Shown here: in pieces, positions 14,065 through 15,756 of the stretch
Layout: each line of letters starts with the position of its first letter
Position numbering within the stretch: the stretch's first letter is position 1
Origin: an uncultured Clostridia bacterium
GTDB lineage: Bacteria > Bacillota > Clostridia > Oscillospirales > CAG-272
Length of the DNA: 64,000 nt
Direction of reading: 5' to 3'
NCBI GenBank assembly: GCA_947631765.1
Contig: CANRMP010000008.1
Coordinates: 1 to 64,000 of the forward strand
Translations under genes and position numbers: made by a program
Notes under the pieces: model-generated
The model's input: only the letters and a program-made list of their open reading frames with translations
Database searches by the model: none
What the model was told of the DNA's origin: nothing

Positions 14065-15756
14065 ATGAAGATTTTGTTTGTTGCTACAGTACGAAGCCAT
14101 ATCGGACAATTTCATATGCCTATTATACGAGCATTGAAAGAAGAAGGTCATGAAGTTCATGTAGCCTATAAAGATGATTCTGCCCAAAATACTGGACTTA
14201 ATTTATCTGGAATAGATAAGGTATATGAAATCCCGTTTGAACGTAGTCCTTTCAGTACGAAAAATATTCGCGCTTACCACGAGCTAAAGAAAGTAATTAA
14301 AGCAGAACACTATGATGTCATTCATTGCCATACTCCGGTAGGAGGAGCGCTTACACGTTTGGCGTGTCGGAAAAAAAGAAAGAGCGGTCTGCGAGTCATC
14401 TACACCGCCCACGGCTTCCACTTCTATAAGGGCGCGCCGCTGAAGAACTGGCTCCTCTACTACCCGGTCGAGTGGCTTTGCGCGCATTGGACGGACGTGC
14501 TGATCACGATCAACAAGGAGGACTACGTCCGCGCAAAGAAGCACATGCACGCCAAGCGGGTGGAATACGTCCCCGGCGTGGGAATCGATCTGCAAAAATT
14601 CGCCCCGAATCGGCTGTCGCAGGAGGAAAAGGTTCGCCTGCGGGAATCCGTCGGCGTGGGGAAGGAGGACAAGCTCCTGCTCTCCGTCGGGGAACTGATC
14701 CGGCGCAAGAATCATGAGTCCGTGATCCGCGCGCTGGCCGAGTTGGATGACCCGAAGCTGAAATATCGCATTTGCGGGTGCGGCGAATTGGAGTCCTATC
14801 TTCAAAATCTGATCGATGAACTGCATTTGACCGACCGTGTTCAATTGCTTGGCTATCGAAACGATATTTCCGAGCTTTGCGAATGCGCGGACCTGTTTGT
14901 GTTCCCTTCCTTTCAGGAGGGCCTTCCGGTTGCGCTGATGGAGGCCATCGCCTCAAAAGTTCCCGTGATCTGCTCGGATATACGGGGAAATACCGACCTT
15001 GTGGGTCAGCAGGAACTGTTTGACTGTACCGATACAGACGGCATAGCAAAGAAAATTCGAGAATCCCTCCAAAACGATCATACGGAGGAAATCGAAAGAA
15101 ATTACAGAAATTTGAAGAAATACGATCTCGCCGCCGTGATCTCGGATATGGAAACCCTGTATTCTCGCGGGGGGGGGGTAAGACACCTCTATGAGATTTA
15201 TAAACAACAACTTCTTCGCAAGTCCATCGGCATTCCCGCCGACGCGGCCTTTTTGCTCTCCGTCGGGGAACTGAACGCCAACAAGAATCACTCCGTCGTG
15301 ATACGCGCCCTCGCCAAACTGCAAGAGCCAAGCCTCCACTATGCCATTGCGGGAGTCGGCGAACTGCACGACGGTCTGCTGAATCTGGCGGCCGAACTCG
15401 GCGTGGCGGATCGGGTGCATTTGCTGGGGTACAGAAACGACGTGGCCGACCTGTATCAGGCGGCGGATCTGTATATCCATCCGTCCAAGCGAGAGGGCCT
15501 TCCGGTTGCGTTGATGGAGGCAATTGCGTCTGGCCTTCCAGTAATCGGCTCAAATATACGGGGGAATGTGGATTTGGTTAGTGAAACCTCGCTCTTTGAT
15601 CCAAAAAATGTTCATCAGATTGCTGAAAAGATCAGACAGTACATTATTTCGGACAGCACTGCAGAAATTGGTCGAAATGATTCAAACGTTATTCTGTTTG
15701 ACATTAAAAATGTCGAGGAAAAGATGAAAGCAATATATTCCCGGCAAGGAAAATAA
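14065..15756 (+). CDS. GT4-type glycosyltransferase with a duplicated C-terminal domain
   Basis: 563 residues. Residues 1-about 368 are a complete GT-B glycosyltransferase: N-terminal domain from MKILFVATVRSHIG, nucleotide-binding domain with LLSVGELIRRKNHESV and EGLPVALMEAIAS. A G10 tract then joins it, in frame, to a second C-terminal domain only (about 385-560) with LLSVGELNANKNHSVV and EGLPVALMEAIAS; this lacks its own N-terminal half. With nine G's the first enzyme would stop right after the tract at its natural length; eight or eleven also stop it soon after. The structure suggests a deletion between tandem paralogues plus a slippage-prone joint. It should transfer a sugar to the lipid-linked intermediate. 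The start follows a weak AAGGAC. Confidence 0.88.
   Translation: MKILFVATVRSHIGQFHMPIIRALKEEGHEVHVAYKDDSAQNTGLNLSGIDKVYEIPFERSPFSTKNIRAYHELKKVIKAEHYDVIHCHTPVGGALTRLACRKKRKSGLRVIYTAHGFHFYKGAPLKNWLLYYPVEWLCAHWTDVLITINKEDYVRAKKHMHAKRVEYVPGVGIDLQKFAPNRLSQEEKVRLRESVGVGKEDKLLLSVGELIRRKNHESVIRALAELDDPKLKYRICGCGELESYLQNLIDELHLTDRVQLLGYRNDISELCECADLFVFPSFQEGLPVALMEAIASKVPVICSDIRGNTDLVGQQELFDCTDTDGIAKKIRESLQNDHTEEIERNYRNLKKYDLAAVISDMETLYSRGGGVRHLYEIYKQQLLRKSIGIPADAAFLLSVGELNANKNHSVVIRALAKLQEPSLHYAIAGVGELHDGLLNLAAELGVADRVHLLGYRNDVADLYQAADLYIHPSKREGLPVALMEAIASGLPVIGSNIRGNVDLVSETSLFDPKNVHQIAEKIRQYIISDSTAEIGRNDSNVILFDIKNVEEKMKAIYSRQGK
15169..15178 (+). repeat. G10 homopolymer inside a glycosyltransferase gene
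   Basis: Ten consecutive G's fall at the joint between the complete enzyme and its extra domain. Loss of one G puts TAA directly after the tract; other length changes stop within a few codons. This is the classic layout of a slipped-strand phase-variation tract. Confidence 0.85.

Follow-up and report, generated by a model that had tools for sequence, protein, structure and literature searches.

What could be the role of a run of ten guanines placed exactly where a complete glycosyltransferase gene should end, and from which the reading frame continues into almost two hundred further codons? The run lies at positions 15169–15178 on the forward strand of the window, by which we mean the whole 64,000-nucleotide stretch of Clostridia DNA analysed here. 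It comprises exactly ten G's, situated where a complete GT4 enzyme naturally ends, as the sequence-only reading had stated. The best explanation of this arrangement, and in our view a probable one, is that the tract is a contingency locus at which poly-G slippage brings about C-terminal phase variation. The features on which the argument draws are the following.

~12503–24275, + strand: glycan locus (capsule/exopolysaccharide-type) with sugar transferase, epimerase, GT4, LicD, GT4, EpsG, GT2, DUF1919 and flippase-like genes (the flippase-like assignment is from translation alone)
14065–15756, + strand: gene for the GT4 glycosyltransferase, here in its fused, read-through phase (563 aa)
14065–15168, + strand: N domain and first C domain (C1), together a complete GT4 of canonical form, with 368 codons ahead of the tract
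15169–15178, + strand: G10 tract, coding for a Gly linker; predicted slippage site
15179–15181, + strand: TAA adjoining the tract, which ends the short form at tract lengths divisible by 3
15181–15756, + strand: second GT-B C-terminal domain (C2), 191 codons and stop
15786–16640, + strand: LicD-family gene, next in the operon
20372–20381, + strand: another G10 tract of this locus, lying in phase inside a DUF1919 gene (19962–20642)

Reading frames at the tract

Recomputation of the protein endings shows how the length of the tract governs the C-terminus. With nine G's (or six, or twelve) the TAA follows at once, giving 371 aa ending in LYSRGGG, while with eight or eleven a stop is met within five codons, after KTPL, at 375 or 376 aa; both outcomes agree exactly with those that had been read from the sequence alone. 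The accompanying claim that only the present length reads on was correct for G10 and too narrow otherwise, as lengths of seven and thirteen also read through, the products being 562–564 aa long. Judged from the frames, two of the three phases would thus yield an enzyme of normal length, and the putative switch is not of the ON/OFF type.

The tract is a homopolymer of at least eight within a reading frame and beyond chance expectation, the property by which poly-G contingency loci are recognized. Runs of G or C in the window fall off geometrically up to length 5, with one C7, and are then followed by two G10; the expected number of runs with a length of at least ten is about 0.013, and the probability of finding two or more is ~9e-5. 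The position near the 3' end of a normal coding sequence, with a protein predicted for every phase and only its C-terminus differing, is that of C-terminal phase variation.

The enzyme and its second C-terminal domain

The gene encodes a GT4 enzyme of the GT-B fold, with a Glyco_trans_4_2/Glyco_transf_4 N domain and a Glycos_transf_1 C domain (Pfam E 3.7e-21 and 1.1e-72, the C domain being matched in two stretches). Fifteen homologues that lack a tract end at the same point, with lengths of 368–392 aa, which marks the short form as the usual enzyme and the fusion as the exception. The second domain of 190 residues announced by the sequence-only reading is present, but it is of a type already found in the protein: C2 is a complete Glycos_transf_1 domain (PF00534), 52% identical to C1, so that the fused protein carries the GT-B C-terminal domain twice. 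In the AlphaFold2 model of the fused protein (mean pLDDT 89, pTM 0.61) the tract-encoded Gly linker, residues 370–373, is the sole segment with pLDDT < 50. The best matches among solved structures are GT4 enzymes with a single C domain, PglA of Campylobacter concisus being the first; the likeness to PglA/BshA-type enzymes extends to sequence and fold, whereas the matched solved members have one C domain and the fused form has two.

No in-frame ATG, GTG or TTG was found in C2 before codon 25. Comparison of the window with its homologue in a related genome (L040, see below) gives a dN/dS of 0.17 at a dS of 1.36 for C2, indicative of purifying selection, and the EGLPVALMEA motif is retained in the C2 of the window. 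Given the full PF00534 domain, the confidently predicted fold, the lack of an early start codon and the low dN/dS, C2 is probably translated through the tract, most likely as part of the fusion for part of the time. The dN/dS could partly stem from an era when C2 belonged to a complete enzyme.

The same architecture in related genomes

A scan of genome contigs revealed the N–C1–tract–C2 layout in two further Clostridia MAGs, both from rabbit gut (isolate names 'Lapin'); their loci are referred to here as L039 and L040. The gene of L040 is 63% identical to that of the window, carries C followed by G9, is fused, and is followed by LicD and GT4 in the same order. That of L039 is 85% identical, carries CA followed by G10, with two extra flanking bases, and stops at TAA, leaving an intact C2 open in another phase. 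A comparison of tract lengths across isolates had been proposed as a check, and between these relatives both lengths and phases differ: two of the three homologues are fused and one is short. Such phase differences, together with an intact out-of-phase C2, are as expected of a reversible switch.

In all three assemblies the tract occupies the same codon with coding homology on both sides, the module boundary is identical, and the ~190 codons of C2 hold no stops. The C2 of L039 (2836–3426) is chimeric, its first ~290 bases being ~90% like the window and the remainder coming from another GT sequence. Recombination, therefore, appears to diversify the C2 module as well, since its 3' half in L039 has been swapped for a different glycosyltransferase sequence.

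Another possibility is that C2 is what is left of a second GT4 gene, now decaying and deprived of its N-terminal half, that it is read in phase by accident and that the tract has no role. The domain does begin at the linker between domains and lacks an N domain, the exchanged 3' half in L039 is what a recombining scrap might look like, and full tandem GT4–GT4 fusions do exist: another genome of the family (L076) has a natural fusion of two complete GT4-type enzymes with no tract. Decay, however, is at odds with a module boundary shared by three genomes, with the stop-free C2 in all of them, and with the low dN/dS and the preserved motif in the window, and we regard this explanation as unlikely.

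The surrounding locus

The LicD gene starts 29 bases past the stop of the fused GT4, which raises the question of whether the switch acts on the downstream genes rather than on the enzyme. The short phase would leave ~600 bases before LicD untranslated and lower the expression of the operon by polarity, and the fused protein would be a by-product; in the case of the Bifidobacterium pili, downstream genes have been argued to depend on a G tract (PMC9187656). Yet no Rho above the cut-off was found in the 97.9% complete genome to which the window belongs, which removes the usual mechanism of polarity, and such an effect would not need C2 to be conserved as a protein, as it is. An action through polarity is, on balance, rather improbable.

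The second G10 tract of the locus lies 5.2 kb downstream of the one in GT4. The DUF1919 gene that holds it is interrupted by a TAA at 20295–20297 although its G10 is in phase. Two neighbouring paralogous genes (20792–21865 and 21881–22885) have a strongly conserved C-terminal part in common; the former is without a Pfam match.

Tracts in the genome and in the lineage

Returning to C-terminal phase variation by slippage, the genome as a whole (2.07 Mb) holds two G8, four G9 and three G10 runs, which form a second mode at 9–10; runs of six and seven, pooled, amount to 96 overlapping counts. Two of its seven G9–G10 tracts occur in genes for BspA-type LRR lipoproteins (C1:175923 and C11:65990), where G9 stands right after the lipobox Cys and reads CGGG-stop. 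Both genes are out of phase, and G8 or G11 would give ~500 open codons. At 74% identity in an alignment, the two copies are too far apart to stem from a recent duplication, and neither has decayed in its out-of-phase state. A further G9, at position 34968 of contig C2, is in phase within a signal-peptide-like segment. At C14:21527 a G10 lies directly upstream of a promoter-like site, TTGTTT-17-TATAAT. Loss of mismatch repair was ruled out as the cause of instability: mutS1 was present in 13 of 13 genomes tested, and no repair defect would explain instability in this genome, since it encodes MutS1, a point that weighs against the slippage reading.

Long tracts are widespread in the lineage. At least one G9+ run occurs in 104 of 196 family genomes, a count that includes some G runs at contig ends (e.g. 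in G156) that are not comparable, and some relatives have dozens; the genomes that contain the loci L039, L040, L041 and L042 have roughly 15–40 G9+ tracts each. The tract had been called unusual for a spore-forming Clostridia, and while Spo0A is indeed present, the frequency of such tracts among relatives speaks in part against the rarity. The hosts of tracts in 67 scanned pieces include acyltransferases (9), GT4 (5) and GT2 (3) glycosyltransferases, pyruvyl transferases (3), ATP-grasp sugar-transfer proteins (3), LicD and LRR proteins. Thirty tracts in G196, G197 and the genome of the window have long frames on both sides and an unambiguous phase; 13 are in phase and 17 out of phase, some of the latter possibly being gene boundaries. 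A paralogous gene cluster in another genome (L232–L236, G458:C2:72200–100260) has several members with G9–G11 just past the start codon, and tract lengths and phases vary between the copies.

Two pairs of contig ends in the relative G196 overlap and are identical save for the tract: C45 and C60, over 141–142 bases, differ as G9 and G10, and C57 and C24, over 45–46 bases, as G8 and G9. This is what an assembler leaves if the reads hold two lengths; sequencing stutter could also give such overlaps. That the tract length in the window is itself an assembly or sequencing artefact is very improbable, for while Illumina errors are frequent at G tracts (PMC9187656) and some family genomes have G runs at their contig ends, this tract is internal, stands at the same codon amid coding homology in three assemblies, and belongs to a lineage whose lengths peak at 9–10 (G9 in 45 and G10 in 14 of 68 tracts), as in the Campylobacter phasome with 53% G9 and 26% G10 (PMC6321876).

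Proposed mechanism and relation to known systems

The evidence from relatives and from the other tracts of the genome lends good support to the initial proposal that this glycan gene carries a phase-variable tract prone to slippage. Replication slippage would shift the number of G's by one. Translation in two of the three phases would end at or just past the tract and yield the canonical GT4; in the third it would pass through the Gly linker into C2, predicted to be a donor-binding GT-B C-terminal domain, and yield an N–C1–C2 enzyme. Comparison with relatives suggests that several tract lengths may coexist in one population. From the enzyme family and the locus we infer that the extension may alter activity, partner binding or donor use, and hence the surface glycan; the proposed switch of glycan structure is to be understood in this sense.

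Poly-G variation of the cell surface is known mainly from Campylobacter and Helicobacter. C-terminal phase variation through a poly-G tract at the 3' end of the coding sequence has been proposed for Helicobacter canadensis, where one phase of the HCAN_0660/0661 tract could merge the gene with the next, an arrangement that its authors considered perhaps unprecedented (PMC2823697). The position of the tract, the altered C-terminus and the possible merger with a downstream gene are common to both cases. The change in H. canadensis, however, mostly concerns a few residues, or two hypothetical genes, whereas the addition here is a complete conserved domain of catalytic type, homologous to one already in the protein. 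The Campylobacter phasome is similar in its G9/G10 peak, its glycan and surface genes and its mixture of in-phase and out-of-phase states; it differs in that it belongs to another phylum and in the presence of MutS1 here. The flanking signature described below is strong in genomes of the present order. In Bifidobacterium breve, a Gram-positive gut commensal, slippage in a G tract likewise joins two ORFs, as measured by Maximum Depth Sequencing (PMC9187656), but that switch turns a pilin precursor ON or OFF and does not add a C-terminal domain to an already complete enzyme.

The literature searched yielded no relevant account of phase variation by poly-G tracts in Clostridia, Firmicutes or Ruminococcaceae. 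Novel features of the present case are its lineage, the nature of the extension, in which a catalytic-type domain occurs for the second time, and the signature of the flanks. On these data, uncultured gut Clostridia that have Spo0A possess a large repertoire of loci for poly-G phase variation, and the present gene is a clear example, since slippage in it would append an entire conserved domain of catalytic type. Such a repertoire predicts surface-glycan heterogeneity in gut commensals, of relevance to phages and host immunity.

Sequence context of the tracts

Long tracts share their flanks. Among the 64 tracts of at least eight G's in G196 and G197, the next base is T in 54 (TA in 47) and the preceding one is C in 52, while T follows only 24% of short runs of 3–5 (binomial p ~2e-24 for the contrast). 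Two genomes of another family, which were chosen because of their CG9TA matches, have TA after 22 and C before 17 of their 25 tracts. In 394 genomes of this order there are 120 occurrences of CG9TA against 8 of the reversed control; viral contigs, taken as an outside control, display a weak bias in the G11 form (at least 120 vs 66).

What could maintain this signature? A promoter role for the TA at coding tracts was rejected, position +6 being without T enrichment, as was selection for stop codons, TAC/TAT outnumbering TAA/TAG by 32 to 16. One might suppose a dedicated process, rather than passive slippage, that creates, recognizes or maintains tracts with a 5' C and a 3' TA in coding sequences and promoters alike. 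We consider this doubtful; if true, poly-G contingency loci would be the sites of a specific system. In the promoter cases the TA opens a TATAAT-like box, and the tract forms the spacer after TTGACA. Five loci (L163, L168, L188, L189 and L222) have G9–G10 spacers between TTGACA and TATAAT-like boxes, an arrangement fitting promoter phase variation.
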